Source: Cliona cf. orientalis (Eukaryota; Porifera; Demospongiae; Clionaida; Clionaidae). Taken from it: 64,000 bases of DNA. Below the pieces are notes generated by a model. It had not been told where the DNA came from. It made no database searches and saw only the letters and a program-made list of their open reading frames with translations. Position numbers and translations under genes: made by a program. The stretch lies in the NCBI GenBank assembly GCA_963930775.1, contig OZ005689.1, positions 14,136,923 through 14,200,922 of the forward strand. The letters run 5' to 3'. Below, one piece after another: positions 10,648-60,470 of the stretch (the stretch's first letter is position 1; each line of letters starts with the position of its first letter).

Positions 10648-10799
10648 TGAAACTTCTGTTTGCTCTCGAACCTGAACAACCAGTCGATGTCATCCCACAA
10701 AAATTTTAAATCTAACTGGTCACATGATATTATATCACGCATGCGCAAACTTGCGTACGTCCAGCCACACGTGCAATAATATTAAAATTTAATTTATAT

Positions 10800-16025: not shown

Positions 16026-16870
16026 ATGGCTGGACTTGTACCTCCTGGTGTATTTCTGCTCTTGCTGCTAACTGGTGCAGTAGACAAAACTGATAGTGTT
16101 CCTGACATTTCAAACCTTGCCAAGTTTCTTAACAGTATTGAATCTGCAGTTGTCCAACTCAATCCTGCAGAGTAAGAACTGACTTAAAATTTAATCTGCT
16201 TGTCACTGTATTATTTAATATACACCACCAGTAGAACATTACCATGCAAGTTTTATTCCGGGTGTTGCCACGAATGTTAGATCATACAAGTTTGCTTAAT
16301 ACCTACAGGAACCGGCAAGCCTGCAGCAGATGCTCCTGTAAATTTGTAGGTGCAGATGGACAATACTTCAATGGACGCAAAGTAGAAATAAGAAGTGAGG
16401 TAGAATCGCTTGCAAACAAAGACTTTGACAATCGAATTGAATCTATACAAACCCAGGGGGACTGTAGGTGGTTAGCATATCGAGGCCCTAACTATGAAGT
16501 CTATACATATATTTTGGAATCCAGCAAGTATTATCCAAAACCATCATCATGGGGTGGACGTGCCAATGAAATATCTTCTGTTAGACCTCTCCCTCCTAGT
16601 GGGACACCAGCAATAATCCTTTTTCGATATGGACACTTTGGGGGACGTATGGAGGTCCTGGAAGATAGTAATGATGATCTTTCAAGCATTGACTTCAATG
16701 ATGCTACAAACAGCTTTATCATCACTGGAGGCACTTGGACGCTCTTTGAGAATCCAGGCTATACTGGCAATGGTGAGAGTTTTGGAGTGGGAGACTACCC
16801 TAATGCTGCAGTTACCCTAGCTCATGTTGGTGGCTATGGAGTAGTCAGCTCCGTCAGGAAACGAAGCTGA
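16026..16870 (+). CDS. Secreted two-domain beta/gamma-crystallin, copy C (intact)
   Basis: Exon 1 is 16026-16171 (donor GTAAGA) and exon 2 is 16309-16870 (acceptor ACCTACAG); phases match and give 235 residues. The signal peptide has core VFLLLLLTGAV, so the product should be secreted; mature linker DISNLAKFLNSIES follows. A cysteine cluster (CSRCSC) opens domain 1, which contains CRWLAYRGPNYE, YTYILESSKYYP and SSWGGRANEISSVRP. Domain 2 has ILFRYGHFGGRMEVL, NDDLSS, GTWTLFENPGYTG and GGYGVVSSV. The family fold is Greek-key; calcium binding is possible. It is the cleanest A/C-type copy and the reference used for judging the broken ones. Function is unknown; extracellular structural or defence roles are both conceivable. 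Confidence 0.9.
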
Positions 16871-25481: not shown

Positions 25482-26160
25482 CGAGTCGGTAGACTCTATA
25501 AGTAGGGATGGCCCAGATATGCCATATAATATATAATACATTACAAATACCCAAATATCTTAAAATATGTAGTTTTGTGAAATTTCTAAATGTGAAAATC
25601 AGAATCTCCAGCAAATTATCTATCCAACAAGACTAAGATCATTCATCAAATCACTGATTGTATATGCCAGAACCAGATGTTAAAAAAATGGGCATTTCTC
25701 ATTCTTTCTTCTTTCTTTCTTTCTTTCTTTCTCATTTCCAGGGCTAACTCAAGACTGTCTGGACCTCTCACCTTACTTTTCATATAAATCCACTCTATTT
25801 TGTAGCGCGCAGTGCAGTGGCACGCTCGTTATCTCGACAGTTACGTAATAGTGGGTGTGTATGGCGCATTACAATTGGGTTTGTCTGATATGCCATTTTG
25901 TGATAATAATGTGCATGCTCGGAATGTGTTGCCATGGTGAAGTCATGTGACAGCGCCTGGCCGCGCCCTAGGCGATCGCGAGCTAGCTACCAGTGCGTGC
26001 AGCGGTGCACTGGATCGATCATGGATATGAAAGTGCAAGGCTCGAAGAGCAGTAAGGCGCTAGGCATAGGCGAGCTATTCGCTAGCGTGTGCAGCGCTAG
26101 TGCTCCGCTGGATCGATCATAGATATCATACTATCATACGAAGGCTCCGATTTCCATACC
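25482..26160. repeat. Dispersed repeat, intact copy (empty target of the MULE)
   Basis: Matches 47923-48542 continued at 60412-60465, where the large MULE is inserted. Shared words are GAGTCGGTAGACTCTATAAG, a (CTTT)n run (25700-25738), GTAGCGCGCAGTGCAGTGGC and GGCGCTAGGCATAGGCGAGC. At 26092-26115 it reads CTAGTGCTCCGCTGGATCGA uninterrupted, which is the unoccupied MULE target. Confidence 0.88.
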
Positions 26161-26254: not shown

Positions 26255-29028
26255 CAAGGGCGGCATAGACGGTCCGGCTGGTCCGGCAAACGCCGGACCA
26301 CTTTCAGGAGCTGTGCGCAACGCCGGACCACTTTTTGCCTGTGCGATGAGCTGGACCCCACCCACTTTATTGAGTAGGTGTGGCAACCTAGCTGTTGAGC
26401 ATGCGCATTAGTATACCTGCTCGCTGCATTGAGAGCGACCTAGCTAGGTGCCATGTGACAGAAGTAGGACATGTCGAATTGTCGTCAGCAATCGCTAAAA
26501 GAAACATTTTGTGCTGGAACAAGTACTACAGTTGAAAATGATAACGTTTCCAGCGACTCTGAACTCCGATTATCAGACAGTGACATCGCTGATACTCCCG
26601 CGCCTGAGGTTGAAATTGACCACACACCCGGTGAATTGGACATTACCGATCAACCTAGTGGTGCCTCGGGTAGCTCAACTATATACCGGGCGTAGTGATG
26701 AAGAAATGGAGATTCAACTGTTGGACAAGCCACATCAACCACGCTCTGGAGTCTTCCCCAAGAGGCAATTTGGCCAGAAGAAGCCTGAATATCGCTCTTT
26801 TAAACCCAGTTGGTTTGATAACAAGCTTTGGTCTGACTGGCTTCACTGGGAAACTAAGAATAACAGAGCGTACTGTTTTATATGTCGAAATGTGTATGTT
26901 TTGCACCAACTGACCTTGTCTAAGAATCAGGAGTCTTCCTTCATCACTTCTGGCTTTAATAACTGGAAAGACGCAACAAGAGCATTCGAGCTTCACCGCA
27001 AAAGTAGTTGCCACAGGGAAGCCTTATTAAAATGGGAGCATCGTGAGAGAGGAATCGGTATTGATCTTCAACTTCAAAGGCGATTGGCTGCAGAACAAGT
27101 TGAAGCAAGGACTTATCTACACAAGATTTTTACCTCAATTGAATATCTAGCTCGACAGGCACTACCATTACGTGGTCACCAGGAAGAGAGGGGAAATTTT
27201 TATCAATTCATGAAGCTTCGTGGAGCTGATTCTGATGGGCTGAAAAAATGGCTACAACAAAGGAGATCTTATACTTCACATGAAGTACAAAATGAGATAC
27301 TGAGAACCATGGCTCTTCAGATACAGAGATCTATTCTAAAGGATATTTGCACTAGCATGTGGTTTTGTGTGAGTGCTGATGAGACAGTGGATATTTCCCT
27401 GATTGAACAGGTACATGGTATTGCTATTACAAATCTAATTATCATTATGGTTTCAATGCACTGCTCTTTATCCACAGCTCACAGTATGCATTAGATATGT
27501 GTGCCCACACACATTTGAAGTCTTTGAAGACTGTATAGGCCTCTACGCTACTGACAGAACGGATGCTGGTAATTTGACACAACTTATCAAGGATGTCTTG
27601 GTCCGCCTTTCTCTTCCTTTGGAACACTGCCGTGGTCAGTGCTACGATGGTGCTAGCAACATGTCTGGTCGACGTTCTGGTGTTGCAGCACGAATCCAGC
27701 AGGAGGAACCAAGAGCTCTCTATGTTCATTGCATGGGACATTCCCTCAATCTTGCTGTACAGGACACTTCTTGTTCTGTAAAGGTCATGGCTGACACATT
27801 TGACACTGTTCTTGAGGTGGCAAAAGTGTTTAAGTACAGTGCAAAAAAGAAAGCCATGCTATTGAAGCTAAAAGCAGACCTGTCACCTGAAACTATGGGA
27901 ATAAGGTCATTGTGTCCTGCTCGCTGGACAGTGCGAGCTGAATCACTAAGGTCTGTTATTTTGAATTATTCAGTGATCCACTCGGTCTTGGAAGAGATAA
28001 TTGAAGAATACAGGGGAAATTGAGAAGCTACTTCCCAGGCCAGAGGGATTATGGTTACCATGGAAAAATTTTCCTTCCTGTTTGGAGTAGTGATTGGAGA
28101 GAAGTTGTTTAGCATCACAGACACACTAAGCAAAGCTCTTCAAAGGAAGACTATGTGTGCTATGGAGGCCAAAAGGCTTGCTGCTGTTACTCTTGCCAGC
28201 CTTAAAGAGCAGAGAAATGACAGCCATTTCGACAAGATTTGGGAAGAATTGCTAGCTAAGGCTGATGAGTTTGACTGTGAAGAACCAGCGCTTCCACGCA
28301 GGAGGAGAGCACCAAAGTGCATTGATGAAGCCAGTAGTACAACACATTTTGATGCAACACCAGAAGATATGTATCATAGGTACTATTTTGAAGTCCTTGA
28401 CACACTTATTGGTGAAATTGAGCACCGATTTGAGTCATCTTCTTTTACCTTCTATGCCAAGGTAGAAAATGTTTTGGAGAATGCTGCCATTGGGAAGAGC
28501 GTTTCTACCAGAGATGTCGGAGTAATAGTAGAGCATTTCAAGGAAGATTTGGTAGAATCGGACCTATTAACGGAACTGAAAATGGTGAAGAATGTCTACT
28601 GTGAAAAGTCTTTTGCATACAAGGAATTTAAGGAGAAGATCGTCTTATATAAGAGCATTTTTTCACAGACATCTAGGCTATTGCAGTTGCTATTAGTCAT
28701 GCCGGCTACCTCTGTGACAGCAGAACGATCATTCTCTTCACTATAAGACATGTAAAAACGTACCTTCGCACAACAATGAAGCAAGAAAGGCTTAATCATT
28801 TAATGACAATTTACATCCATCAAGACAGAAAAATTGATATAGATAAAGCAATGAACGAGTTTATTTTATCTAACAGTGAACGCACACGAGTATTTGGAAA
28901 ACCACAACAGAAATAGTAGAATAATAATATTATAATTTTCTATATTATGTGTCCGTTGTGTATTCTAGTACTTGCAATTACACATAAACTAGTGCCGTAT
29001 CACTTTTATAACTTCTGTGCCGCCCCTG
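26255..29028 (+). mobile_element. hAT transposon, decayed, with 5-bp target duplication
   Basis: Termini CAAGGGCGGCATAGA and TCTGTGCCGCCCCTG form imperfect 15-bp inverted repeats around a hAT transposase gene. It is flanked directly by AATAG on both sides (26250-26254 and 29029-29033). The flanks are the two halves of the minus-strand LINE 3' end: removing the element and one AATAG rejoins the LINE frame FKKLLL to a stop within three codons. That independently fixes the boundaries and the 5-bp duplication. Confidence 0.88.
26471..28916 (+). pseudogene. hAT-family transposase (ZMYM1/TTF-finger type), broken
   Basis: Transposase for cut-and-paste movement of the element. The acidic N-terminus (SSDSELRLSDSDIADT) shifts frame at about 26690. 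A TTF-type zinc finger follows (CFIC ... HRKSSCH). Then the DUF4371-like core has FCVSADETVDIS, CYDGASNMSG and VHCMGHSLNLAVQD, and the C-terminal dimerisation region has PATSVTAERSFSSL. A 67-bp intron at 27411-27477 (GTACAT...CCACAG) joins SLIEQ to LTVCIRYVCPHTF in phase. Lesions are the N-terminal frameshift, an in-frame TGA at 28021-28023, and a frameshift at about 28745 after which KTYLRTTMKQERLNHLM continues to a stop at 28916. Not able to make a full protein. Confidence 0.88.
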
Positions 29029-30962
29029 AATAGTAGTAACTTTTTAAAAGACATCAAGTTATTTATACTGGTCATGTCCTCTGGTAACCCATTCCACAGG
29101 CCTAGGGCATTAGGAAAGAAGGAATGTTGATATGCTGAAGTTCTTGCCCAAGGGATTGTAAGAGAATTGTTATTAATTGATCTGTGCTGGTATGGAGTCC
29201 TCTTTGCAACGATCGGAGCATCTGGAAACTCCGTCATCTTTTTAATGATTTTAAACAAGTGACAAAGTTTCATCCGCATTCGTCTTGTCTTTATTTTGAT
29301 CTTATCAGGAGGTCATCATAATTCTCATTCCAAGATTTGAGGCACATCCTTAGACCAAATTTCTGCACGCTTTCCAGTGCATCTATCTGTAGTTTTTGCG
29401 AGGGATCCCAGACTGAGGAAGCATACTCCAGATTTGGTCTAATGATAATAAGATAGAGTTTAAGTAAGGTGACCGGATCGGAATATCCATAAAACTTCCT
29501 ATAAATCATGCCAATGAGCCTCCTATAGTCTTGTTGCAGATTGTTGTTATGTGTGGCTTCCAAGACAGGTTGTGAGAAATAATGACACCCAGATATTTGT
29601 AGGTTGTAACTCGTGAGAGTACTACTCCATTGAGATAGACTGAGATCAAATTACTTCTCTTCCTCGATAGCAGCATTACACGACATTTATTTGCATTAAA
29701 CTCCAGTAGCTTGCAAGATATAAATGAAGATATGAAATCCACATCCTTTTGAACAATGTCATAGTCACTCTGAGATTGAATGATTCGATAATAGGCTATA
29801 TCATCGGCAAACATATTTATCATACTACCTTGGGAGATGGTAGTGGCTACGTCATTGATATACATTACAAAAAGTAGTGGACCCAGCACACTTCCTTGCG
29901 GTACACCGGACACCACCGGTAGTCTATCTGAAGCCTCACCCTCAACAGTAACAAATTGAAATCTGTCAGACATGTAAGTAGTTGCTAATCCACTTTCGGA
30001 GGTAAGGATTAACGTTGAATACTTGGAGTTGATCCAGCAACAGTTGGTGTGGGATGCTATCAAAGGCTTTGCGCACATCAAAAAAAGATGACACAGACCT
30101 CGTATACTGTATAGCCGGAAATATTGGCGGGAATTAAAGTTGGCGGTTGAGCCCAAAATCGCTATTATAAGAATATTGGCGGATTTTAATTTGGCGATTG
30201 TAATATAGAACCGCCAAACCGCCAAATTTAATTTCCCGCCAAATTTTCCGGCTATACGGTATACCCATGATCAAGCGCACTGGCCCAGTCGTCAACTACC
30301 TGGATAAGAGCGGACATTGTGGAGCGATCTGCCATAAATCCCCACTGACGTGGTGAAATAGGAGCATGTTTCTTGAGATGTTCCTCCAACACTTCTTTCA
30401 CATGTCTTTCAATGATTTTTGATGAAATAGGCAAGATGGAAATGGGTCTATACGTATACCCTGCTGTGGTATCCTTCTCACTGCCGGGCTTAGGAATTGG
30501 CACCACCCTGGCCGTCTTCCACTCCCTAGGGAATTTGCCTTTTGAGATCAACATGTTGATAAGTTTAGAAAGTATTGGTGCGGTGCTATCAGCAGTCTGC
30601 TTCAGCATCCTAGCAGATATGCCATCACAGCCGGTTGATTTTGCAGTGTCTAGTTGAGCCAATAAGTCAAATACAGATGCTTCAGTGGAGAGAAGTTGCT
30701 CAGGGCAGTCTTCAGGAGGCATTTCCTGTTCATGGTTGTGAGAACACTGCGCTAGAGGAGGACAATTTTGATTATAACAACTATAGAAGAAATTATTGAG
30801 AGCATTGGCTTTGTCTCTGATATTCAGTGTAGGAATGGTTGAGGTGGTATTATTTAAAATTTTCATGGTTTTCCAAAACTCCTTATTGTTCGCCTGATTC
30901 AGTTTGCCAAAAAATGCTCGTTTACTCTCATGCAATAGAGACACAACTTTATTCTGCATTGA
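29029..30962 (-). mobile_element. Non-LTR retrotransposon (Jockey/CR1-like), 5'-truncated
   Basis: Minus-strand reverse transcriptase with no endonuclease domain, so it is 5'-truncated at about 30962, where an unrelated repeat (GGGGCGTGGC) begins. Frames give SRAFF-type linker, CDGISARMLK, YRPISILPISSKIIERH, FDVRKAFDSIPHQ, GVPQGSVLGPLLFVMYIND, the catalytic FADD, then the thumb (YKYLGVIISHNLSWKPHI) and HSFFPNALGLWNGLP. It is interrupted by a 157-bp MITE at 30105-30261 and its last codons lie beyond the hAT insert (below 26254). A T-run frameshift near 30085 and further frame breaks at 30000 and 29510 show it is dead. Confidence 0.88.
30105..30261. mobile_element. 157-bp MITE inside the LINE reverse transcriptase
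   Basis: Inverted ends TACTGTATAGCCGG / CCGGCTATACGGTA with GGCGG-rich arms; flanked by TA on both sides. Removing the element plus one TA restores the alignment of the LINE to its relative at 50.5 kb (one residue between LDHG and EVC), except for one extra T in the following T-run. Confidence 0.85.
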
Positions 30963-31099
30963 GGGGCGTGGCCGCAGTACGAATTTTGACACTGCTCCCA
31001 TTAAGCTTCCACTTAATTACACTGGACAGAAGATGGCATTGATAAATTACACTAAGTACAATAAAAAAAAAGAACTGAAACAAGTATAAAAAATAACTG

Positions 31100-44335: not shown

Positions 44336-44809
44336 AGACTACTAGGAGATATGAACTGACACGTCCAATAGTCTGTTGTAATAGTATAGCCATTTTACAT
44401 TACATTTTGGTTCCATAGGGCTGCAGATTTCAGCTCCGTCAGAGGATTCGGATGGAGTATAGATTTCAAGGACATTATTAATTTCGACGATCTTTACCGA
44501 TCATAATGTTACTCTAGTTGTGCGCATGAGCAGACAATGCAATAGGCATGCATTATGCATTGAGTAGGCACTGTCGATAGGCGTGGCTACGTAAAAAAGC
44601 ACTATTTGTGACGTCTATGGACCGTATCCATCGATTTGACGAACACTGAAGCCAGTTTTTCGCCGAATTCGATTGATTCGTAGTACTTACGAGTCGCTTA
44701 GACGTATATATCTCGAGATATGGCGATTTTTGTGCTCACGACGACAACGACAACAACGACGACAACGACACGACCGATTACTTAACCCCTTGCGCATGCG
44801 CGCGGGGTA

Positions 44810-45460
44810 ACTAGAGCTCAAAAGAGCACATACCCCGCGCGCTGCAGTGTCGACGACCTTTACCTACATATTGTGCCAGGTTGTGCGCATGAGCAGAAAG
44901 CACATGGTGGGTAGTGTAGGCGTGGCCAACAAAATGCCAAAATGCAGCATTTGCGATGCTTGTGGACCTTACCAAACGATTCGAAGCATAATGAAGCCAG
45001 TTTTTCGACGATATCGACGGATATACTATACTTACGAGTCGCTCAGATGCCTAGATCTCCAGATCCGGCGATTTTTGTGCTAACAACAGACACAACCGAT
45101 CACTTTACCCCTTGCGCATGCGCGCGGGGTAACAACTAGAGGTCTGTAGAGCACATACCCCGCGCGCTGCAGTGTCGACGACCTTTACCTACATATTGTG
45201 CCAGGTTGTGCGCATGAGCAGAAAGCACATGGTGGGTAGTGTCCATAGGCGTGGCCAACAAAATGCCAAAATGCAGCATTTGCGATGCTTGTGGACCTTG
45301 CCAAACGATTCGAAGCATAATGAAGCCAGTTTTTCGACGATATCGACGGATATACTATATTTACGAGTCGCTCAGATGCCTAGATCTCCAGATCCGGCGA
45401 TTTTTGTGCTAACAACAGACACAACCGATCACTTTACCCCTTGCGCATGCGCGCGGGATA
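44810..45460. repeat. ~325-bp tandem repeat, two units
   Basis: GCTGCAGTGTCGACGACCTT through ACAACCGATCACTTTACCCC is repeated at an offset of 321-325 bp with few changes; the open frames across both are therefore near-identical and not evidence of genes. Confidence 0.88.
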
Positions 45461-46218
45461 ACAACAACGACGACACAACCGATTATTTTACCCCTTGCGC
45501 ATGCGCGCGGGGTAATAATATTAGAACATCATGGGGCATGCATTCATACAGTGTGTGTGCAGCCTGAGGATGGCTAGAGAACACAAGTTGGCAATCTGGA
45601 ATGTACGTGACAGCTATATCATGGGGTAGCTAGCATGTGTAGGCAGAATGGAGAGAGACTCACTCAACTTGGTCACCATGACAACCTGGAATGTGAGAAC
45701 TATCATGGAGCAAGTAGTGTGTGTGGATGGGGTGGAGAGGGAACACAATTTGGTCACCATGATAACCTGCATGGAATATGAGAACTATCGTGGGCAAGCG
45801 TTCAATATACTGGGTAGAAGCTTAATTATGTACGAGGGAGATTCACACTGGATGGGTCTTGTTGAAAAGCCATACTTTTAGACACTAATTCCAATGCTAT
45901 AATAATAGATGTTTGCTGGGTAATTGCCAGGACAAATATAAGTCTTAGAGCTTTTTCTATGCCAATAATTTCAACAATAGCACGGGTATATAACATTTAT
46001 AGCTACAGTAAATATGCTATTAGTTGTTACAATTAGGGCCAACAGTAGCTAACAGTAACTAAAAACACTATATTAGCTATAGCTAAAATCTTCAATAGCT
46101 ATACTACTATAATATAATATTATAATACAAGTTTCTGTTTATACAATTCAAGATTATGGATATTATTGTTATTAGTTCAATGCACTGTTTAGTGCTGATC
46201 TCTTGCATATAGCTAATT

Positions 46219-47922: not shown

Positions 47923-48542
47923 TAGAGTCGGTAGACTCTATAAGTAGGGATGGCATGGATACTCCATATATGTAATACATTACAAAAATCTAAATATCTC
48001 AAAACAGGTAGCTTTATGAAATTTCTAAGTGTCAAAATCAGAATCTATAGCAAATTATCTATCTAACAAGACCAAGATCATCCATCAACTCAATTGTATA
48101 TGCCAGAACCAGATGTTCAAAAAATAGCCATTTGTCATTCTTTCTTTCTTTCTTTCTTTGACTATCTGGATCTCTCACCTTAGTTTTCATATAAATCCAC
48201 TCTATTTTGTAGCGCGCAGTGCAGTGGCAAGTTAGTTTGCATTTTTGCGTTATCTCGACAGTTACGTAATAGTGGGTGTGTACGGCGCATTAACGATTGG
48301 GTGTGTCCGATACGCCATTTTGTGATATAATGCACATGCTTGAAATGTGTTGCCATGGTGAAGTCATGTGACAGTGCCTGGCCCTAGGCGAGGGTAGCTA
48401 GCTAGCTACTCGCTAGCGCTAGCGCATGCAACGGCGCACAGGATCCGGATCATGGATATGAATATGAAGGTGCAAAGCTCGAGGAACGGTAAGGCGCTAG
48501 GCATAGGCGAGCTACTCGCTAGCGCGTGCAACGCTAGTGCTC
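47923..48542. repeat. Dispersed repeat, left half (MULE target)
   Basis: Left part of the repeat intact at 25482-26160; it resumes at 60412 after the MULE. The last nine bases, CTAGTGCTC (48534-48542), are the left target duplication. Confidence 0.88.
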
Positions 48543-48709
48543 GCGAATTTCAAATTTGGGCGTACTTTGTGGGGTCAAAGGTTAATATGTGATTACTTTA
48601 ACCCTATGCCCACGCGATATTGAATTCACCAGCGCTGCGCAATACATAAAGCATGCGATCTGGTATGATATTCTTCGCGACTTGTATAATTGGGTGGGGC
48701 ACGGAAATA
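48543..48709 (+). repeat. MULE left terminal inverted repeat (167 bp)
   Basis: Begins GCGAATTTC and ends ..GGGCACGGAAATA; the complement is at 60245-60411. Identity breaks immediately after (CTACTAC versus ATAATAT). Confidence 0.93.
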
Positions 48710-48756
48710 CTACTACAGATACTGACAAGATGGATCATGCTGGATGGCTATTATTA

Positions 48757-48912
48757 TCAAGGTTTATATGTTATATCTTTAGCTTTGATGTTTACACTTA
48801 AGCAGTGTGGTTTCTTGGGTCTCTTTGCCTTGGGAGGGAAATAGTTAGGCTCTTGAAGTGGACGTTTCGTCGGTCTTCCCTGTGGTGCTTGTTTTGTCCC
48901 TCTGGGTAGACC

Positions 48913-48945
<33 letters not shown>

Positions 48946-51900
48946 CAAGGCGACCTGAACACTAAGCAGAAAAAAATTGTCCAAAAACCACCATATAATC
49001 GAGCTGGGTGCATAGTGGAACCATACAATGCAAGCAGGCAGCCTAAATTTCAATTTTGTCAAAAAGTTGGTAATGGTCGTCACGTTTATGTGCGCGCGTG
49101 GCCCCGCCCCTCACGTAGCGCGTGGGCAGAAACATTGCAAACGCATGGCTTCCCTGTACAAACATATGGGAAAACTTCAAAGGGCCGTAACTTTAATTGT
49201 AAGGTGTGAATCAAAAATCTGTCCGGTCAAATCTCTAGTTTCGACCCATTCTGCGTGCCCATGTAAAAATTATCTCCCCAAGTACTCCCAAACCCCCCAT
49301 GAATTAGATTATTTAATTATTTAAATCTTTTCTTTTTTTCTACTTAGTGTTTAATTTTGTCTATGAAATGTTTTTGCATAACAAATGCAAGGGATATACA
49401 AAATAGTGAAACACACTAATATGAATGCATACCCTATAATGAACAATTATGACTATGTGAATGATTTAGAACTAAAGTAGTGCTTTAAATTACGTTTAAA
49501 TGAAGGAATGGAAGGGGAAGTAGTGATGGACTGTGGAAGTGAATTCCATAGTGACAGTGTAGATGGGTAAAATGAGTGAAAGTATAAGTTTGAATGTGCA
49601 TATGGTTGGATGTACGTTTTCCGGCTGTTGGAGCGAGTGTTATAGCTACAGATGCGTGGCTCAAGTGGAGCATTGTTAGGGGTGACGACATACCCATTGA
49701 TCGCCTTGTAGAGATAAACCAAGCAAAGCATCTTTCGTCTATCCGCAAGGCTTGGTAAATTACAAGCTTGTAAGTTATCACTATAGGATCTGTCCCAGCT
49801 CTTTAAGCAAATTTTTAGTGCAAACTTTTGAATAGATTCCAACTTTTGTTCATCTTTCTTGAGGTACGGGTTCCATACTGAAACAGCATATTCTAGATGG
49901 GGCCGAATTAGGCAGAGATACAATCTAATTAACGCTCTTGATGTAGCCCATCTGTAAAATTTCCGGTAAAGAAATCCAACCAGCCTCCGGGTTTTACATG
50001 CAATCTTATCAATGTGCAGAGACCAGGATAAATCATTAGTAAGAATAACTCCTAGATATTTGTAGTTGGATACTTGCTCCATTGGTTGATTGTACAATAG
50101 CATTGTCTGGGATGGAACTGACCTCGATTTTAATCTTGATACCACCATATATTTGCATTTGATGCTATTCAGAGCTACTGTCGACCCAAGAAGATACCGT
50201 ATCAGTATCTTCTTGCAATGCTTCATAGTCACGGGTGGAATGAATGATTCGATACATGAGGATGTCATCAGCATAAAGAGAAATTAAGGTACCATCTGAC
50301 AGAGGCTCCTGCACCGAGTCGTTTATATAGAAGAGAAACAACAGTGGCCCTAGCACAGATCCCTGGGGTACTCCTGACTCAACATAGGTGGTTAAAGAAG
50401 CTTTTCCATTCAACACAACATATTGCCTTCTGTTGCACAGGTAAGATATTAACCATCTCAGAATATATGGATCCAAACCAGCAAGAGTAAGTTTATCGAT
50501 AAGACACCTGTGAGGAACAGAGTCGAAGGCTTTTCTTAAGTCAAAAAATATTGCACAAACTTCCTTCCCTCTGTCCAAGGCTGCAGACCAGTCATTGTAT
50601 ACATTTAATAGAGCAGCTGTGGTTGACTTCCTGGGTTGAAAGCCCCATTGATAGATGCTAATTGGTGAATGAAGTTCAAAATGTTTAGCAATTACCCAAT
50701 ACATGTGTCTCTCAAGAAGTTTACTTATAATAGGGAGTAAAGATATTGGGCGGTAATTTGCCACATTGGTATTGTCATTACCCTTGGGGACGGGGACAAC
50801 AGAAGACAGCTTCCAGCTACTAGGAAGTTTACCGGACATTATTGACTTGTTAAATAACTTGGTGATCTGCGGGGCAATGCTATACACTGTTGATTTAAGC
50901 ATAGTCGCAGAAATCCCATCAGATCCATTAGCCTTGGTTGTATCTAGTGATAACAGGAGGTCCAAGACTTCTTCCTCGTCACAAAGAAATTCTTCAGGAC
51001 AGTAAGAGGGATCTAAGTCGAAGTCCACAGTAGTCCAGTCCTCCAACTTGGGAATAGAAGTATTAAAACATTTGGCAAAAAATTCATTTAGTAATGCAGC
51101 TTTACCACTATCATCAGAGACAGGTTGTCCATGGGCATCTTTTAAAACAGGAATGGTGCTCTTTTGGCTGTTCAAGTATTTTGTAGTTTTCCAAAAGACC
51201 TTGGGATTGGAAGGGTCCAGTTGCTCAAAAAACTTGAATTTTGCAGACTTGAGCATGTTTGCAACCTCATTTCTCTTTTTTCTGTAACAATCCAGGTGTG
51301 CCTCCTTCCCTGTCTTGTGTGCTCGCCTGTACAAGATATTGCGTGATCTAATAGCCGCCAGGAGGTCGTGAGTTAGCCAAGGAGGATTTCTATTAACTTT
51401 TACAGTCACTGTGGGAATGCATTGACGCATTACATTCTTACGCCAGTGGAGTTGGTTTTAATGTACCTTCCGGTGTGTCCTCTAGCTTGAACAAATCCTG
51501 TAAACATGCATTCTTATATTAAATTATTGAAGAAGATACACATGTGTGTATGAGCAGTGTTTGTTTAACTTACTATCTGGGCGCCCGAAGTTATGCAGTG
51601 CGTATGCAATGGCAGGGGTAGGAGAGTGAGACTGTTTCAACGCATTGTATGTACGAATAAACTTGGTTACTCCAGATAAAATAGTATGGTCACCTTCTGT
51701 AAGTCTGCCCATTAGATCTGTGGTTATTGCACTTAGTGAGTGTTGTAGTTGGCTACAGTGCATCTGCCAACTGTCCTCCCCTTTAAACTCAGATATAATA
51801 TTATCATCTAACAATTTTTCTGGGGATAGACTCTGCTTGTGATATAATATGTCATTGTCGTCTACATTCGAGATGACCAAGTTTTGATCCACTCCTGCTG

Positions 51901-54900
51901 CGTCGCTAGTGATGTCACATAAATCAGCGTAAAATTCCTTCTCCATAATGTAGCTCTCTCCTCTAGCTATATAGGCATACAATTGTCTTGTTTTTTTGCA
52001 GTGAATAGGTACGATGCTAAGTGACGCAATGTTATATTTCTTGGCTATTGCTGCCTGATGTTTGCATGCTGCACCGGTTTGTCCTACAGAGCATGAGCAT
52101 GTACAGAGTTCCATGTCAACCGTATAGTCTAACTGCCCAACTTCTTTAACTGTTTCATATACAACATATACAGAATCTCTGACAGGTTTCACTTCTGAAA
52201 TATTTTTTTGTTGCCTATCCAACTCACGATAACGTAGAGTAAGACCTGGTCTATAGCGACTGTGTGCTATGTCGAATAGACGATTCATGTAATACATTTC
52301 CATTGTAGTTGTTATAAACTGAAACATCTGGATCAGATTATATGCTTTCACTCGGCCAAATACAAGTTCCTTGATTATCCTCATTCCTGCCTCTGCATAA
52401 TTATTGGTATTATTTCCTCTAGTCATATCATTTAGGCGATATGAAAGAGCCCATTCCTTCCTTCTCTTCCAAAATATTTCCAATCGCTTTTCCAGTAGGG
52501 GATACTTCTTTATATAGCTATCAGGATGATCTTGGTTCATTAGTGCCAAATATTTTGTTTCCATATCTGATTCATTATCGTTGTACACTAGTTTTCGAAC
52601 AAGTGCCATGATAGGATACCGATCTTCTTTACTTATCCCATGTGTACCATCCCATAACCATGTCCACCAGCTTTGCAAATAATGAAAAATGCACAGCAGC
52701 TGCATGGAATTTGGCCAAACCTCTCTTAATGCACCACGTTCTGCATCACTGTCGTCAGTAATGAATATAGATGGCCCATTAGTCCCTTTCCCGTAGAATG
52801 CATTAGATGGAAAAATTGATCTTAAAAAAGAGAAAGATTGTGTCAGAGTCGGTAGGCTTTCACCAGAAGTAATTACGACTCCTAGTGGTATCCCACCAGC
52901 ACTACATGAGGTACTCATAAAAAAGGTAGGACAATTGTATCTATCAAGACTAGCTGTACTGTCACAAAATACCATTTCTGAAGCTTGCCTTAACAGTGCA
53001 TGCGCTCTAGCCATCAGAGGTGTACAGATAGCTAGAACAAGTGGTTTATCTATATCTCTGTTATCCCAACTTTCTGATTTGTTAGAGATACCTTTCTCAT
53101 AACGCTGTATAAATGCTCGTCCACCTTCATCACTATGATTCCTATTGTAGTCATTGATAATTTCCTCTAGTTTTTGAAACATTTCTTTTCCATTCTCTTT
53201 ACCATGGTTTTTCAATCGCCATTTTTTGAATAGGTAGTAGACATCCTTGTATAAAGGATTAGTAGATCGGTCTGCTCGACACCTTTCTAGCTCTTGTTCG
53301 TTACATTCATGCATAGCTGCTAGATTTAACTGATGAAAATGTAGGGCCGAGGATGGCGAATGCCCTTGATCAAAATAATTTTCAAATTTATCTTTTGTAT
53401 CGTTACTTATAGGTCTGAAACTGAGTGCCTTTGCTGAGTTTATTGTGTGATTATGTCCCCAGTCAAGTACTAGTTCACAAGGATGGGATCTGATAACACT
53501 TTTTTTTGGATTGTGAAGCTTTAGTACAAATTTGGACGGGCAGTCTGTTTTTTTATCACGTAGTTTCAAGCTGTCTTTAGTAGGATTGGTTGTTTTGTTG
53601 GCCTTTCGCTTATGTTGGCAGTGCCTTTCTGTTTTGTATAGTACTCTTTTCCCGCTAAATCTGCTTCCCCGTGTCACTCTGTATGTTGTATTGTTGTGAT
53701 TTTCGAATGTTTGTAACCACTCTGTTGCTGTACTTTCATCAGGCACATTAATTAGTACACGTGAATGAAACGCTTCTTTTACTGAATTTGAAGTCCATGA
53801 AAATTCTAAGAAGTGATAAGTATAAGAAGGGGGTAAAATTATTGATAATAGAGGTGGTAGATCTTCATGGAAAAGAACTTGATTTAGCGGTGGTGATTCG
53901 AATTGGGCAATAAATCCCTCAGTTTTATCATCCATAGAGTGAATTTCTCCTGGCAGTGTGGGTGAGTGACCTTCTCCTCCTGGCAGTGTGGGTGAGTGAC
54001 CTCCTCCTGGCAGTGTGGGCGGGTGAATTTCTCCTCCTGGTAGTGTGGGCGAGTGAATTTCTCCTGGCAGTGTGGGTGAGTGACCTCCTGGTAGTGTGGG
54101 CGAGTGACCTTCTCCTCCTGGCAGTGTGGGTGAGTGAATTCCTCCTCCTGACAGTGTGGGTGAGTGAATTTCTCCTCCTGGCAGTGTCGGCGAGTGACCT
54201 TCTCCTCCTGGCAGTGTGGGTGAGTGAATTTCTCCTCCTGGTAGTGTGGGCGAGTGAATTTCTCCTGGCAGTGTGGGTGAGTGACCTTCTCCTCCTGGCA
54301 GTGTGGGTGAGTGACCTTCTCCTCCTGGCAGTGTGGGCGAGTGAATTTCTCCTGGCAGTGTGGGTGAGTGAATTTCTCCTCCTGGCAGTGTCGGCGAGTG
54401 AATTTCTCCTCCTGGCAGTGTGGGCGGGTGAATTTCTCCTCCTGGCAGTGTGGGCGAGTGAATTTCTCCTGGCAGTGTGGGTGGGTGACCTTCTCCTCCT
54501 GGCAGTGTGGGCGAGTGAATTTCTCCTGGCAGTGTGGGTGAGTGACCTTCTCCTCCTGGCAGTGTGGGTGAGTGACCTTCTCCTCCTGGCAGTGTGGGTG
54601 AGTGACCTTCTCCTCCTGGCAGTGTGGGCGAGTGAATTTCTCCTCCTGGCAGTGTGGACGAGTGACCTTGTATTCCTGGCAGTGTGGATGAGTGAGCTTC
54701 TTTGGTCATCTCTGTGACTTTGGTTGCCTCAAAAGTGGTAACTGGAATGGATTTACATGTTGATGTACATGTAAGTACATGTATATTGGGTTTCTTTGAG
54801 GTGAGAGGAATGTGTGATAAAGTTTCCCTAGTGGCTTCAACTAGTGGAATGTGATTTGTAATATCTTGCAGTATACTTTTGGCATTCTTTGTTGGTATTA

Positions 54901-55371
54901 ATTTTGATGTGTTACCATGTCTTTTGAGGGAAAGTGTTTTTGTTCTTCTTGGCTCTCGCATTGATGAACATAAATTTGCATTTGTGACTGCTGTGGATGC
55001 TTGTAGTGATATATGTGTTGATAAGGGACTATTTGCTTCAGTAAGGGAGGACACTGAAGTGGGGATTTGTTCTGAGAAATTGGTGAGGGGTGGTGTTACA
55101 TGAACTACAGAAGCCTGGTTCATACATGTAGCTGGTGATGATGTGCTACAATGTACTTGTGTGCATGTTTGGCACTTGGATGGATTATGAGCTTCTTGAA
55201 TGGGTACTATTGAGATGTCATGGACGGACAAATTTGTTATAGAAGGTAATAGTGGCTTGTGTAGTCTTCTTGCTGTCACTGGTTCAAGGAAGTACTCTGG
55301 TGAGTAATACTCCATTGAATAATTTGGACATCTCTGACCAATAAGGTGTTTTCTCTCGTGATCTGATCTAT
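48757..55371 (-). CDS. MULE transposase with SWIM finger (last exon split by a LINE)
   Basis: The large exon (about 55371-51574, ATG 55315, 1.2 kb before the core) ends at a GTAAGT donor after HNFGRPD. The next exon starts at 51497 (TTTACAG acceptor), reads ARGHTGRYIKTNSTGV in phase, then meets the LINE at about 51440. The frame resumes beyond the LINE's poly-A at about 48919 as KGLPRGTKQAPQGRPTKRP to a stop at 48757-48759. Domains by residue from 55315: Ser/Thr-rich 1-200; about 25 copies of HSPTLPGGEG/HSPTLPGEI at 205-458; C/H-rich DNA-binding region of WRKY-GCM/FLYWCH type at ~545-630; MULE catalytic region (FCDSTASLD ~780, ITDDSDAERG ~853, IFHYLQSWW); SWIM finger CTCSC..CKH at ~1068-1083. 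A MULE catalyses cut-and-paste movement. The main exon is open throughout; the LINE should disable or truncate the tail. Confidence 0.88.
48920..51440 (-). mobile_element. LINE (Jockey/CR1-like) inserted in the transposase last exon
   Basis: Minus-strand reverse transcriptase, 5'-truncated (no endonuclease). Frame 51430-50165 has WLTHDLLAAIRSRN, KANGSDGISATMLK, YRPISLLPIISKLLERH, FFDLRKAFDSVPH, GVPQGSVLGPLLFLFYIND and catalytic YADD. A frameshift between 50274 and 50165 is followed by 50274-49453 (YKYLGVILTNDLSWSLH, FHSFYPSTLSLWNSLP). Beyond the stop, about 500 bp of 3' untranslated sequence runs to a poly-A of about 27 A (48920-48946, T on the plus strand). The exact 5' junction near 51440 is estimated. 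A relative of the LINE at 29.0-31.0 kb. Confidence 0.85.
53940..54700. repeat. Coding minisatellite in the MULE transposase
   Basis: Units of 30, 27 and 24 bp (CTCCTCCTGGCAGTGTGGG..) encode HSPTLPGGEG, HSPTLPGGEI and shorter forms on the minus strand. A 253-codon frame on the opposite strand (VWVSDLLLLA type) exists only because the period is a multiple of three. Confidence 0.92.
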
Positions 55372-56820
55372 TATAACAATATTATATACAAACTCAATAT
55401 CATGATTACATCAAGTGCTAGAGTGTGTGCTAGAGTATGTATATGTTATACTATATAGCTGAAAATTTTGATATGCATTCCAAAAGAGAATAGTTTAAGT
55501 AAATACAGAAAATATCATCAAAAAATTACAGAAAAAAGACTTCACCAAAGAGAGCAGGTATTCAAATTTCCACTTCAAAAATTCTGGCTACATGGTATTA
55601 CTTAGACTACATGTGATAACTTACATTAGCTTCCCACATAGTATCTCTTCATACATGATCTTCCGAATTATTCCCATATCAGCCTGACAATAATAGTTCG
55701 ATAGCATGACATTGCATGTACTCTCTATACATGATTTTATTTAAATAAGTGGTGATTGTGTGCATGAGCAATCTAATAGACCTGTTACTGAGCGATATTT
55801 ATCCCATATTGCACAGGGGTTATCGGAAGGTACTGGTTGCCTTGGAAACATGTGAACATGTGTTTAGCACCTTGGCCAGCCTACAATGGTACCAAGAGTA
55901 TATAAAGAGGGGGAGAGAGAGTGTTGAACCACGCATATGCTGTGTGTAATGTATGGTTCGTGACCTTTGTAATGATATTAATTTGTGGAGGTCACTCTGG
56001 AATGTGCTGGCACTCTGGGCTCTAGTGTTTATGAATTAGGGTGACCTCCAAACATGAATATATATTATTAACAAAGGTCATGAACCATACGAACAGCTGT
56101 TATACACGGCATATGCGCGGTTCGACACTCTCCCTCCCCCTTTTTATATAGTCTTGATGGTACGTAGCTATTTGGGTAAATGCTCCCACACTTAAGCTTC
56201 CCATGTTTTCCTCCCAGTATATACAAGTCGACATCAATAAGCGCATGATAATCTCAATTATCATGTGCCTGTTGACGATGATTCGTTGGTGCTATCCTTA
56301 ACTAAGAGAAATCCGTGTTATCCCCTGCCTCACAGGGGTGGGGGGATTGACTGTCATAGTTGCTTGTGTTTTATAATGTATTTGGCATATCCGGGCCATC
56401 CCTACTATGGTAGTGCATCAGATGGTATTAGCATACTTATCTGAAGTCCATTTGTGTGCCTCTTGCCAAATGTAGTGCATACGGTATAATACAAGTGTAT
56501 ATTGTCATAATTACATTGAGTAGTAATGAAATTTGCATTTGATTTACTCATGCAATATTCACCTGACACACAAAAACACCACAGTCGTGCCCATTTAGTT
56601 GTCGAGGAATGAGCTAGAGGTTATTGAATGTATTCAATTTCTCATGGCGTACATGTATGTATGTAATTCAATGCACTTACCTTTTTTTGTATGTAATTCC
56701 ATTGCTTCCAGTCGATTGTGTAGCCAGCAAGGGCATCCATATACGACCTATATTATTATTGTGATTGCCATAATTCGCGAAAATTTCATAATATCCAAGT
56801 TTATGAGTCATCCACAAAGT
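55372..56820. other. MULE interior: transposase upstream region and a palindrome
   Basis: Upstream of the transposase exon a TTATAATAG acceptor-like site at about 55371 suggests an earlier exon that I could not identify. At about 55885-56165 two arms of roughly 115 bp form an inverted repeat: TATATAAAGAGGGGGAGAGA, GAACCACGCATATGC and CATACATTACACA-like words on the left, complements on the right. Each arm contains a TATATAAA box. Confidence 0.6.
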
Positions 56821-56821
56821 A

Positions 56822-57370
56822 TACCGTATAGCCGGAAATTTTCGAGGGATCCAATTTTCGAGGAAGGCCAATCTTCAAAGATTTCGCGATCTAATTTTCG
56901 CCAAAGAACGCTCCAGGGTTGTTCCACCCCCAATGTCCGTTAGGCTCCGCCTCTTACTGCACACGCGCCACGGCTCAAATCTCTGCCGAAAGGTTGTGTC
57001 AGTGATCGTTGGTGAGATCGAGAAATGGCACGAGAGTCGCACATGATCGAGGCTATGGTCTGTGGTTACCACATATACAAGGAGATTTGGGCCACGTGGA
57101 TCATGAAGTTTGGTAGAGTCACTTGAGCTTGAAGGCTTGAAATAACGTAACGGAGACATTTGTGTCGGAGAAGCTCAACTAGTGTGAAGTAAACCAGCTG
57201 TTAGATCGATCAAGCAGCGGCATGCACCACGATGGCCACACCCCCTGTTATCACGTGCGTCGATGTTGCGAGAACGCATGTTTAGGGTTTTTATTTCGTG
57301 GATTTAATTTTTGTGGGTCGCCTATCAACCGCGAAAATTGGCTCCCTCGAGAATTTCCGGCTATACGGTA
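56822..57370. mobile_element. 549-bp MITE with TACCGTATAGCCGG ends, nested in the MULE
   Basis: Inverted ends TACCGTATAGCCGGAAATT / AATTTCCGGCTATACGGTA, TA on both sides (56820-56821, 57371-57372). Same 14-bp ends as the MITE at 30105-30261. Non-coding. Confidence 0.88.
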
Positions 57371-57665
57371 TACAACTCTTCAGTATATATTATTATTCTT
57401 GACTCACGCAACTGTCTTCATAATTTCTTGGTTTTCTGAAAGACAAGAGTCATAATATTCTGCTCTTTGTTCAGGAATATTTATGACCTGAAATAATTGT
57501 TTAATTCTGTGATCAGTTATGCATGTACTCATAATAAAACTATACCAAGAGTGTCCAGTGACTTCTACCCTCATTATTAATGAAGAAGAGCTTATCGTTT
57601 TTCAGAATGCTAGGCTATTCATAAAAGTAATAATTTTTCTTCAATAGAAACATAATTAATTTTAC

Positions 57666-58058
57666 TTGTTTATATTTGGTTGGAAGCTTTGTATAGCCAC
57701 GGTCAAACATCTCAAAGAAGACACACCCAAATGCCATTATATCGATACCACTCTGTGTGCATTTCAATAGTGATAAATTTAAAGAAAATAGAATTGTTAC
57801 CATATCATACATTTGCTGCTTCTTTACACACTAGACCAATGTAGGTATCTATGACCCGCAAGATACAAGATGCATGAATTTAATTGTATCTGTCATGACA
57901 TTGCACCATATACCTGATCATTCAGCCACCCCATCCCCAGCAATGACTTGCATTCAGTCAAAGAAAGTGTGAATAATTCTTGCTTATCTGTAAAAATTAA
58001 TGATGGTCCTGATAATTGACCAACTCCCAACTTTGCCCTCGGGATGTGTGCTACTATA
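57666..58058 (-). pseudogene. Ulp1-like and kinase-like exons in the MULE
   Basis: Exon 58058-57914 reads LSLTECKSLLGMGWLNDQ before a GTATAT donor. The L..LL...WLND motif is typical of the start of Ulp1/sentrin-type cysteine proteases. Exon 57752-57666 (after TGCACACAG, before GTAAAA) reads SGIDIMAFGCVFFEMFDRG, resembling protein-kinase subdomain IX (D-x-x-x-FG...E). Both are short, phase-compatible with each other (phase 0), but the first is not in phase with the last USP exon, so another exon lies between or they are separate captures. Assignments rest on single motifs. Catalytic residues of either family are not visible. Confidence 0.4.
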
Positions 58059-58123
58059 CTGCATAATATTATATAATACAAGGCGAGGGATTGATCTATA
58101 TTTAATTTTTATCCCATTGCTAT

Positions 58124-58301
58124 CCATGGCAGTGTTCTCCCTAGCATACCTAAGGCATATCGGCCCAACAAGCCTTTAGTAAAGAGTTTCCTTTGGTGTG
58201 GGAATAGGAATTATCCATGTGCTTTGATGTGGCCACAGGCTCCACCCTAACTATGCCCTCCCATCATGCCTTGAATTTAGCTTGGGGAGAACGCTGCATG
58301 G
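58124..58301. mobile_element. Small MITE, CCATGGCAGTGTTCTCCC ends
   Basis: CCATGGCAGTGTTCTCCCTAGC and GCTTGGGGAGAACGCTGCATGG form imperfect inverted termini 178 bp apart, in the intron-like gap between the USP-like and Ulp1-like exons. Confidence 0.7.
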
Positions 58302-58587
58302 ATACACTAAACATGTTTTTAGCCCTCAACTATATGGACATGACCCTACAACGAGGGACTGCATCACATAATTATACTATAATAATTATAATAGTACCTT
58401 AGCAACCGCATAGCAACGGACTAGAAATAATTTAGCATGTGTCATATTAATAACGGTACCTTGCTGTTCATAAAAAAGCATATATGGGTGCTGTTGAAGA
58501 ACAGTTGCAATGCTCACTTGTGTAACCTACAGGAGTATACTGAACTTGATACATAATGTAGTGACTTATCTGCATACGTAGATGTAC

Positions 58588-60042
58588 CTGAGAATCGTTT
58601 ATGTAGAACCATTTGCTTCCATCTTTTATTGATTTTACGAAGGCTGAATAATGTGCTAGACCTTTTGACAATCTTTCATAAATAACAACTCCCGTCAGGC
58701 CATAATGCACCCTATGCCCTAGTATTATGTGTGATTTCTACATGTATACAGTACATATAAGAATATAATATTGTTAACAGGGTACCATTATAATAATCAT
58801 TTATTTTGCACCTGGATTTGAACAGTTGACTTCATTCCATTTCTATAAATAGGTAGTATTTTGAGACTCCAATGATTATTCATTTATTCATACTTACGTA
58901 GCATGATGGTCAAAGACATGTAAACATAGTACACCTGGTAATTCTGTAATTGCATTCCCTTTTTCCAGGGATACTTCCTGTCCACATCTGTATAATAATA
59001 TGGTATACAGCTAGTAGGTCATTATTGTAGTCACGGTCCCGCCTGAATGTTAATAAAATCACAATCTTGGCCAACGTGCACAGGGGCTTACCCAAGCTGG
59101 TATGTGCATGGTACATGACAGGAGTACATACTTATGCAGGAGTGCTTGCCTGCAACACTATGGTATTTGCTTGTTATACCCAGGACTATAAATATTATAT
59201 AGTCTGCTATAATTATACAAATTTACCGATCACAATAACCATGAACCATTTCTGTATCAAGCCACTCCGAAAGCAAATCTTGTACTCCAATTGACCGACC
59301 ACTCTGGATATCATAGGGTATATGCATTATTCCTTTCATTAATTTTATGCATAGTCTGCCTAATCTTACCGGTGCATATAGCTGAATACAAGGAGTTTTT
59401 ATCAGATTCTGATTGAACAAACCACATGTGGTGCACCTGGCTGCATTTGTTGAAATACAAGCTAGCTATATTATTATGATCATGAATAATAATCACATAC
59501 ATTTGCTTGTAACACTTGCATGTAGCATTGACTCAAAGTCTTGCCGTACACTGTATGCAGGTAATTATTAAATTTTATGGTACCATTGCCATAATTATGT
59601 ACAACAATATTATTTTACCCATTATCCAGGAGACAAGAAGCGAGAGCGAGAAAAAACTCATGGGCATCATTTTGTCTGTGTTTTGTTAACTCAGGAGAAA
59701 TATCTAAATCATGTTCATATCAGTTTGTGCTGTTAGTTAACTTCATTCATGAGGAAGACTAGTATTGTGTACCTGCTAATGCTGTTAAGATTGGAGTAGG
59801 TGAGATTGTTCGAGATGGTCTAGAATACTTGTAGTCTTGAAGCATCATAATGATAGCCCTAATACTGCATATGGGACCTATCAGGAGTGGTGAATTGTGT
59901 GTAGCTAGCATTATTTACTCAGAGGAGTGCACACATACTTGACTGGCAATACTTGCTTCCACAACCATCTGGATGTAGTTTCAATAATTCTTGACCCAAT
60001 CTCAGAAAACTCGGCAGGTTGAACAAACATTGGACGATGGAG
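58588..60042 (-). CDS. Ubiquitin-specific protease-like gene carried by the MULE (partial)
   Basis: Nine minus-strand exons with GT-AG sites and fully consistent phases: 60042-59939, 59864-59773, 59703-59619, 59550-59501, 59440-59370, 59303-59227, 59096-59035, 58987-58898, 58718-58588. They read, in order, FVQPAEFSEIGSRIIETTSR; IRAIIMMLQDYKYSRP; QNDAHEFFLALASCLL (the USP QQDAHEF box); VRQDFESML; CTTCGLFNQNLIKTP (CxxC ribbon); SIGVQDLLSEWL and GYC; LAKIVILLTFRRD (the P-x-LxLxLxRF strand); then YGLTGVVIYERL, AHYSAFVKS and KWFYINDSQ (histidine box with His and Asp/Asn). USPs remove ubiquitin from proteins. The Cys box (GNTCY-like) was not found upstream, so a catalytic activity is doubtful. No stop interrupts the exons. 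Introns are 47-179 bp. Confidence 0.8.
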
Positions 60043-60045
60043 CTA

Positions 60046-60244
60046 GCATAGCAATTGAGACGTTGATTTTTTTATCCCAGCTGGAAGGAGGCTATCTCGA
60101 TAATAGACCTCACAAATCCTGCTGCTCCTCTTGGTAGTAGATTTTGGCAATTGTCTTTGCATGATGCTCTTCAAATTGAGAGATTCTTTCCCGCGCTTTT
60201 GTCCAGGAAGGACCAAGGGGTTCAAGGTACAAGGATAATATTAT
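60046..60244 (-). other. Possible first exon of the MULE cargo gene
   Basis: Between the right terminal repeat and the first USP-like exon two competing minus-strand frames are open: one reads SWTKARERISQFEEHHAKT and stops at 60110; the other ends RICEVYYRDSLLPAGIKK at 60043. Neither contains a USP cysteine box and I cannot choose between them. Confidence 0.3.
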
Positions 60245-60411
60245 TATTTCCGTGCCCCACCCAATTATACAAGTCGCGAAGAATATCATACCAGATCGCA
60301 TGCTTTATGTATTGCGCAGCGCTGGTGAATTCAATATCGCGTGGGCATAGGGTTAAAGTAATCACATATTAACCTTTGACCCCACAAAGTACGCCCAAAT
60401 TTGAAATTCGC
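60245..60411 (-). repeat. MULE right terminal inverted repeat (167 bp)
   Basis: Reverse complement of 48543-48709 without a mismatch that I can find. The right copy lies about 200 bp upstream of the USP-like exons and may supply their promoter. Confidence 0.93.
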
Positions 60412-60470
60412 CTAGTGCTCCGCTGGATCGATCATAGACCATCATACGAAGGAGCAAGACTCGAGGAGCG
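60412..60470. repeat. Dispersed repeat, right half after the MULE
   Basis: CTAGTGCTCCGCTGGATCGA resumes the repeat interrupted at 48542; the first nine bases are the right target duplication. Confidence 0.88.

Follow-up and report, generated by a model that had tools for sequence, protein, structure and literature searches.

Ulp1-type proteases have been met before in Mutator transposons of animals: elements of hydra and lancelet that carry an Ulp1 domain are named in the parts of the Ginger paper drawn on here (PMC2836005). Fusions between transposases and Ovarian Tumour (OTU) or Ulp1 proteases have, in addition, prompted the proposal that transposition involves ubiquitin and SUMO (PMC2836005), and a literature search returned no test of such a role in animals. 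Here, we analyzed a Mutator-like element (MULE) of the sponge Cliona cf. orientalis, which lies within a window of 64,000 nucleotides (contig OZ005689.1, positions 14,136,923 to 14,200,922; coordinates below are those of the window unless a contig is named). The element is best explained as an autonomous-type MULE DNA transposon with a single minus-strand gene rich in introns, whose predicted product would be a single multidomain transposase comprising, in order, a ubiquitin-specific protease (USP), an Ulp1 protease, the MULE catalytic domain, a SWIM zinc finger, and a basic tail. We place the probability of this reading at roughly 75%.

Element boundaries, target site, and relatives

The two ends of the element (48543-48715 and 60239-60411), which spans C1:14185465-14197333 in the assembly, are inverted repeats identical at 171 of 173 positions when aligned within the window. 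Their first 167 bases, constituting the left (48543..48709, plus strand) and right (60245..60411, minus strand) terminal inverted repeats (TIRs), are free of mismatches (167/167 from end to end), as claimed in an earlier note made from this DNA alone. The right TIR was recognized by repeat comparison within the window, and the left one is also supported by near full-length relatives on contigs C4 and C5. A word search of the window located the 9 bp sequence CTAGTGCTC directly against both ends, as left (48534..48542) and right (60412..60420) target-site duplications, in agreement with the direct repeats described in the note. Its sole further occurrence in the window is at 26097 (26097..26105, plus strand), and this is the exact place of the uninterrupted target paralogue that the note had put at about 26092. 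The two flanks, joined through one copy of the 9-mer, align here with 26012-26144 with small gaps. The site is a copy of the ~120 bp dispersed repeat that the element entered (best 40 of 718 genome candidates scored), and is therefore a paralogous target rather than the ancestral locus, although it is good evidence of insertion.

Searching the assembly (216.8 Mb, 149 contigs) with the 167 bp repeat, as the earlier note had proposed, returned further copies and 9 bp duplications (on C4, on C5, and in short elements). Among the best 40 of 53 candidate matches, which were scored, four covered the whole TIR at 97%–100% identity (both window ends, one C4 end, and one C5 end), and the other 36 were confined to the outer 63–82 bp (83%–90% identity). 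The C5 copy (C5:4220970-4234857; 13,888 bp) carries the 9 bp repeat TACCACCAG at both bounds; its right end is cut down to ~15 bp, and three extra stretches interrupt it. It is 99.6% identical to the window element across 3,629 bp, which, together with the identical TIRs, supports the recent mobility suggested previously. The C4 copy keeps the left end, positions 1-377 and 2894-4925 of the element, and fragments of 8826-10922, and its transposase contains two frame-shifting insertions. From these copies and the empty target, we infer transposition of the element.

Twelve candidate loci for short elements were also fetched, of which one on C6 (L024, L025) was dropped, its ends not being inverted. 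The other 11 (L013-L023; 1.4–7.1 kb) have both ends, and their 9 bp duplications are perfect in seven cases (one of them poly-C), match at 8/9 and 6/9 positions in one case each, and are lacking in two. These elements form a non-autonomous group that has the outer part of the TIR in common with the window element and an interior shared among its own members.

A MULE transposase with a SWIM zinc finger

Transposase exon E17 (51574..55367, minus strand), encoding the MULE catalytic domain and the SWIM zinc finger, was assigned on the basis of Pfam, alignment, and a fold match. The open frame on this strand runs from an ATG at 55315 to a stop at 51524 (1263 amino acids), and has Pfam matches to MULE (PF10551; 28.2 bits, E 2.6e-6, cut-off 27.6) and SWIM (PF04434; 24.1 bits, E 2.5e-5, cut-off 19.6), and to no integrase family. 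In an alignment of 35 sequences (the window frame and 34 of 60 transposase relatives), two residues of the catalytic triad (the Glu and second Asp) show no variation and the first Asp almost none; the assignment of these residues is our own reading of the alignment. The four SWIM ligand columns (C, C, C, and H) are likewise invariant. Thirteen of the 60 relatives have names, and these come from echinoderms, corals, nemerteans, and thrips.

An AlphaFold2 model of residues 480-1263 (predicted local distance difference test, pLDDT, 82.3; predicted template modeling score, pTM, 0.69) was compared with PDB folds, and the only matches at E ≤0.001 were chains of the ISCth4 transposase (6xgx and 6xg8; best 7.1e-7), with Hermes next (3.4e-3). 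A search of PDB by sequence gave six matches, none useful (E 0.2–0.61). The ISCth4 transposase is thus the nearest solved fold to the core of the window transposase. We take ISCth4 to be a member of the IS256 group, bacterial relatives of Mutator elements, and presume it to be a bacterial insertion sequence without protease domains, unlike the window element with its USP and Ulp1 parts. Based on the ~9 bp duplications, long TIRs, MULE-type DDE transposase, and SWIM finger, the window element is assigned to the Mutator superfamily. The earlier description of a Mutator-like element with 9 bp duplications is hence upheld by its ends, by both Pfam domains, and by relatives with duplications of the same length.

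The basic C-terminal tail, ending in ...ITYKP, is encoded by a last exon that is present in the window copy as a first (51435..51497) and a second part (48757..48919; both on the minus strand). The second part, which carries the tail, resembles the tail of database protein P0030 (61% over 23 amino acids, E 1.4e-4), and the exon is unbroken in C5.

Predicted protease exons upstream of the transposase

On the minus strand, a six-frame reading of the right half of the element revealed short stretches resembling USP and Ulp1, which are joined in a predicted model of 17 exons (E2 to E16). The USP (peptidase C19) part (58460..60065, minus strand) comprises exons E2 (60065-59939), E3 (59703-59619), E3b (59550-59501), E4 (59440-59370), E4b (59303-59227), E5 (58987-58898), E5b (58842-58812), E6 (58737-58588), and E7 (58526-58460). 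It is supported by the gene model, by Pfam UCH, by a genome profile scan, and by remnants in short relatives. The Ulp1/SENP-like (peptidase C48) part (55625..57987, minus strand), supported by the gene model, Pfam C48, and a SENP1 alignment, comprises exons E8 (57987-57914), E9 (57855-57811), E10 (57752-57666), E11 (57614-57546), E12 (57487-57408), E13 (56747-56681), E14 (56613-56563), and E16 (55683-55625); between the last two, the model may have missed a short exon. Six-frame reading also points to a probable 5′ end of the gene (60066..60301, minus strand), where the reading frame is interrupted in the window copy. The model keeps a single frame throughout, with GT after 17/17 exons and AG at 15/16 inner acceptors; the acceptor lacking AG is that of E9, which is altered in the window and canonical in C4 and C5. 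Through an acceptor at 55367, exon E17 joins the protease exons in phase.

Pfam UCH matched the exon model at 4.1e-17 (63.1 bits, profile positions 77-254). Scanning the genome with PF00443 found the exon with the USP Cys box on its own, under the cut-off (21.7 vs 23.9 bits). With a UCH domain containing both Cys and His boxes, this part is classified as a USP of family C19, with predicted activity. Pfam Peptidase_C48 matched the model at 8.1e-17 (62.2 bits), and comparison of the Ulp1 part with SENP1 (5.9e-16) aligned the HW, YDS, and NGHDCG motifs. The His, Asp, and Cys of the catalytic domain are hence present, and this part is classified as an Ulp1/SENP protease of family C48, again with predicted activity. 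A genome scan with PF02902 at E 0.001 gave 22 matches, none of them at the window element, probably because its Ulp1 exons are short. A fragment at 57.7 kb had been read by eye as a kinase; this was rejected, as the fragment represents the central part of the Ulp1 domain.

Two side observations concern these parts. The intron between USP and Ulp1 contains a dispersed repeat of ~168 bp (58130-58297) with at least 38 further copies at 89%–96% identity. Elsewhere, two weak USP-like matches lie 16 kb apart in opposite orientation (C117:88934-89284 and C117:104997-105347), perhaps in an inverted-repeat arrangement.

One chain or separate genes

Database relatives of the transposase provide a precedent for the proposed domain order. 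Precomputed Pfam annotations of the 60 relatives place C48 in four (P0032, P0039, P0043, and P0046) and UCH in one (P0043); a large share of the rest are short frames, whose start may lie too far downstream for proteases to show. P0043 carries, in one frame, UCH (2-91, 1.6e-17), C48 (337-484, 2.5e-13), and MULE (956-989, 2.6e-6), with SWIM below cut-off. P0039 has C48 (8.4e-20) and SWIM (2.2e-5), with MULE below cut-off, and its first 99 residues taken alone match UCH (1.7e-17). Because the transposases of both proteins are only 32%–34% identical to that of the window, the USP-Ulp1-MULE arrangement would be either old or gained more than once. Another database protein, P0063 (1043 amino acids), has precomputed matches to UCH and a reverse transcriptase.

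Within the sponge genome, a search with the window transposase returned seven more loci beyond C4 and C5, with long matches at 38%–42% identity, some of which closely duplicate one another. Matches to the exon with the catalytic Cys of Ulp1 were found upstream of three other transposase loci (L031/L050, L049, and L046), although these are short and mostly weak (best E 6e-4, 0.02, and 0.3 with the window Ulp1, and 0.03 for L046 with P0032). In L050, the His and Asp stretches of Ulp1 could also be read by eye. An N-terminal domain of the P0030 type shares a frame with the transposase in L032, L033, and L034 and lies beside one in L043; its resemblance to Ulp1 is limited to motifs (C48 E 0.075 for P0030).

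The short elements provide a second line of evidence. A tblastn search of L013-L025 with nine proteins (E 1e-4) gave no match, but a more sensitive comparison of the gene region with these loci later showed a remnant of USP exons E3/E3b (59500-59683; some E3 only) in 10 of the 11 short elements (L014-L023); in the same comparison, none was found in L013 or in the dropped C6 locus. The remnant reads ELT-KHRQNDTHELF... compared with ELT-KHRQNDAHEFF... in the window, and its frames are decayed. As the short elements share the outer TIR and little else with the window element, it would follow that the USP was inside the element before the two groups parted. The short elements with the outer TIR part descend from a USP-bearing relative and are probably mobilized in trans.

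The window and C4 copies were also compared, restricted to aligned blocks. The protease exons differ at 12/829 positions and their introns at 47/1165 (p 0.0007); the exons contain two indels, both multiples of three, and the introns 15, of which four are multiples of three. For the transposase, the ratio of nonsynonymous to synonymous differences (pN/pS), counted to the stop at 51524 and thus beyond the model donor at 51574, is 0.17 (22 synonymous and 14 nonsynonymous; p 1.2e-7). Both copies thus derive from sources with a constrained transposase and, probably, a constrained protease half.

Several observations weigh against a single chain of this composition. The MULE score of the window frame is barely above its cut-off (28.2 vs 27.6 bits), and the fold match to ISCth4 is partial (template modeling score 0.21 by query and 0.40 by target). 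The exons were picked by eye for motif and phase, so that their in-frame joining is partly by construction, and the splicing is that of a predicted gene model. When P0039 is scanned whole, UCH is missing from its matches and MULE stays below cut-off. The USP-Ulp1 part of the model, used as a query, returned one weak relative (P0061), which lacks MULE, and P0043 1-530 returned, apart from the protein itself, two unrelated USP proteins and the Ulp1-MULE fusion P0046. The stretches upstream of L050, L051, and L052 (4.5–5.2 kb each) gave no USP when searched with pieces of the window model, of P0043, and of P0039. A genome scan with PF00443 at E ≤10 likewise gave no match beside the transposase loci at C1:6.29, C1:8.43, C1:14.28, C2:6.61, C4:3.63, and C6:0.53 Mb. 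The 10 remnant-bearing short elements are close kin, and their USP remnant counts as one event; the pN/pS of the protease exons (0.38; 5 synonymous and 7 nonsynonymous) is not significant (p 0.14); and none of the three copies (window, C4, and C5) has an intact gene. Nonetheless, a single gene remains the most likely explanation, because P0043 and P0039 have this order in one frame and because 10 of 11 short relatives retain a USP remnant.

The best of the alternatives is that the element holds two genes in tandem, a USP-Ulp1 protease gene followed by a transposase gene. The open frame does have its own ATG (55315), and plant KIU elements hold Ulp1 in one of three genes, according to the parts of PMC13317346 used here. 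However, homology extends upstream of that ATG (P0001 matches 14 codons 5′ of it), an in-phase acceptor lies at 55367, and single-frame fusions exist with both USP and Ulp1 (P0043 and P0039) or with Ulp1 (P0046 and P0032). Two separate genes are, hence, unlikely, if still the strongest competitor to the single-gene reading.

The question of host cargo

The protease regions could also be pieces of a host USP gene and a host SENP gene, copied into the element by Pack-MULE-like transduplication and carried without function. Acquisition of host fragments by MULEs is known (PMC6446971, in the parts cited), introns are present as expected of capture at the DNA level, and the window copy is damaged. 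Against this, no close host donor was found at the DNA level. In matches to the USP stretch (58310-60230; 40/40 candidates scored), the element and its copies on C4 and C5 were joined by hits to an intron segment (58326-58449) and by three to exon E3, one of which falls inside the short element L019. The Ulp1 stretch (57380-58120; best 40 of 90 candidates scored) matched C4, C5, and intron repeats. A first donor search, in which the best 40 of 670 candidates were scored and an intron repeat took up the matches, also recognized no host parent gene; the USP and Ulp1 stretches above leave this repeat out. A Pack-MULE would be expected to have such a parent and to have lost its transposase gene; here, no parent gene is recognizable at the DNA level among the best candidates, and a 1263-amino-acid MULE frame is present.

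Capture as idle cargo also fits poorly with the equal domain order in P0043 and P0039 despite their 32%–34% transposase identity to the window, with USP exon remnants in short relatives whose TIRs have diverged, with the constraint on protease exons between copies, and with Ulp1-exon matches at the corresponding place in other transposase loci. Mainly on account of the lacking DNA-level donor and the USP remnants in short elements, we regard it as improbable, and more so than two tandem genes. Least credible, to the point of being negligible, is chance pairing of inverted ends and 9 bp repeats from unrelated neighbors or an assembly artifact, as identical ends, 9 bp duplications, and internal sequence recur on C4, on C5, and in short elements, a paralogous empty target exists, and the other genome copies refute chance pairing.

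The earlier note had described an 11.9 kb element with non-transposase cargo. Part of the 11.9 kb consists of nested insertions, and the remaining cargo is two protease domains that are most likely the N-terminal part of the transposase itself. What appears to be host cargo in a large MULE can thus be exons of its own transposase gene, and an easy misreading is corrected.

Possible roles of the protease domains

By analogy with its superfamily, the MULE part of the proposed single-chain protein would cut the element out at the TIRs and insert it with a 9 bp stagger. With less certainty, the two proteases may remove ubiquitin and SUMO near the transposase, which could shield it from degradation or undo SUMO- or ubiquitin-dependent silencing or repair signals. 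Acting in cis, they might target either the transposase complex or the chromatin at the element ends. A role for ubiquitin and SUMO proteases in transposition and repair was proposed in the cited parts of the Ginger paper (PMC2836005), and transposons that encode their own anti-silencing factors have a precedent in the plant VANC proteins (PMC13317346 and PMC6446971, parts cited). It is conceivable, although we consider it rather doubtful, that the element represents an animal lineage with a two-enzyme counter-silencing kit, in which the N-terminal half would strip ubiquitin and SUMO where the transposase binds the ends, undoing silencing (e.g., heterochromatin guided by PIWI-interacting RNAs) or degradation. 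The presence of USP and Ulp1 in line with a MULE sharpens the question, as each catalytic cysteine can be disabled separately and the consequences for transposase stability, silencing, and integration can be measured.

State of the window copy and other features of the window

The window copy contains three nested insertions. A 2.5 kb non-long-terminal-repeat (non-LTR) retrotransposon (48920..51434, minus strand; poly(A) at 48920-48945, reverse transcriptase frames at 49453-51430), absent from C4 and C5, splits the last transposase exon. A miniature inverted-repeat transposable element of 0.55 kb with 45 bp inverted ends (56819..57373) lies inside the E12/E13 intron, and a fold-back of ~0.26 kb (55893..56156), whose arms are ~74% alike, lies inside the intron before E16. 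In addition, a minisatellite with a 30 bp unit, encoding HSPTLPGGE-type repeats, occupies 53947..54701 (minus strand) inside the transposase frame. Immediately ahead of the USP Cys box, either a mutation or an assembly error breaks the frame of the window copy. With its cut last exon, its changed E9 acceptor, and this break in the frame, the copy looks defective. The earlier description of a complete transposon hence applies to its ends, whereas its gene appears broken. The copy is read as recently mobile and has probably lost, through later damage, the ability to produce its own protein, but could still be movable in trans.

Elsewhere in the window, two similar open frames that form a local duplication (5925-6524 and 16244-16870) presumably encode beta/gamma-crystallin-type proteins. 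Near the paralogous target, three plus-strand frames (26511-28746) resemble parts of a hAT-type transposase. Broken frames of a further non-LTR reverse transcriptase were read by eye at 29506-31001 (minus strand), and 44762-45515 holds a tandem array of a 329 bp unit (95% alike), followed by an overlapping 54 bp repeat.

Comparison with known systems

Both Ulp1 in animal Mutators and peptidase C19 with another type of transposase are already in print (PMC2836005, parts cited). A literature search by title and start of abstract, with most subscription papers and Repbase reports outside its reach, did not find USP and Ulp1 in one MULE or USP in any MULE, which is a weak indication that such a case is absent from print. 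The comparisons that follow rest on the relevant portions of the papers named.

Plant VANDAL and KI elements (Kaonashi, KIU) are also Mutator elements with Ulp1, conserved in eudicots (PMC13317346). They are, however, non-TIR elements with Ulp1 in a separate gene, whereas the window element has long TIRs, and its Ulp1 exons join that of the transposase in phase; it thus lies outside the KI-MULE/VANDAL group. Ginger1 likewise joins a transposase to a ubiquitin or SUMO protease (OTU or Ulp1), but its transposase is Gypsy-integrase-like and its protease C-terminal (PMC2836005). The window element, with a MULE-type transposase and two N-terminal proteases, is not a Ginger1 element. A Trichomonas protein combining transposase_11 with peptidase C19 is a further case of a transposase joined to a USP-type protease; it comes from a protist, has another type of transposase, and is listed without mention of Ulp1 (PMC2836005), in contrast to a MULE with Ulp1. 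Among animal MULEs, MuDR-6_HM (Cnidaria) carries a deubiquitinase-type gene, as is the case here, although this is an OTU gene and its table row includes no Ulp1 (PMC6446971), compared with USP and Ulp1 in the window element. The hydra and lancelet elements are likewise animal Mutators encoding an Ulp1-type protease (PMC2836005); set apart from these by description only, the window element adds a USP before the Ulp1 and has long, identical TIRs.

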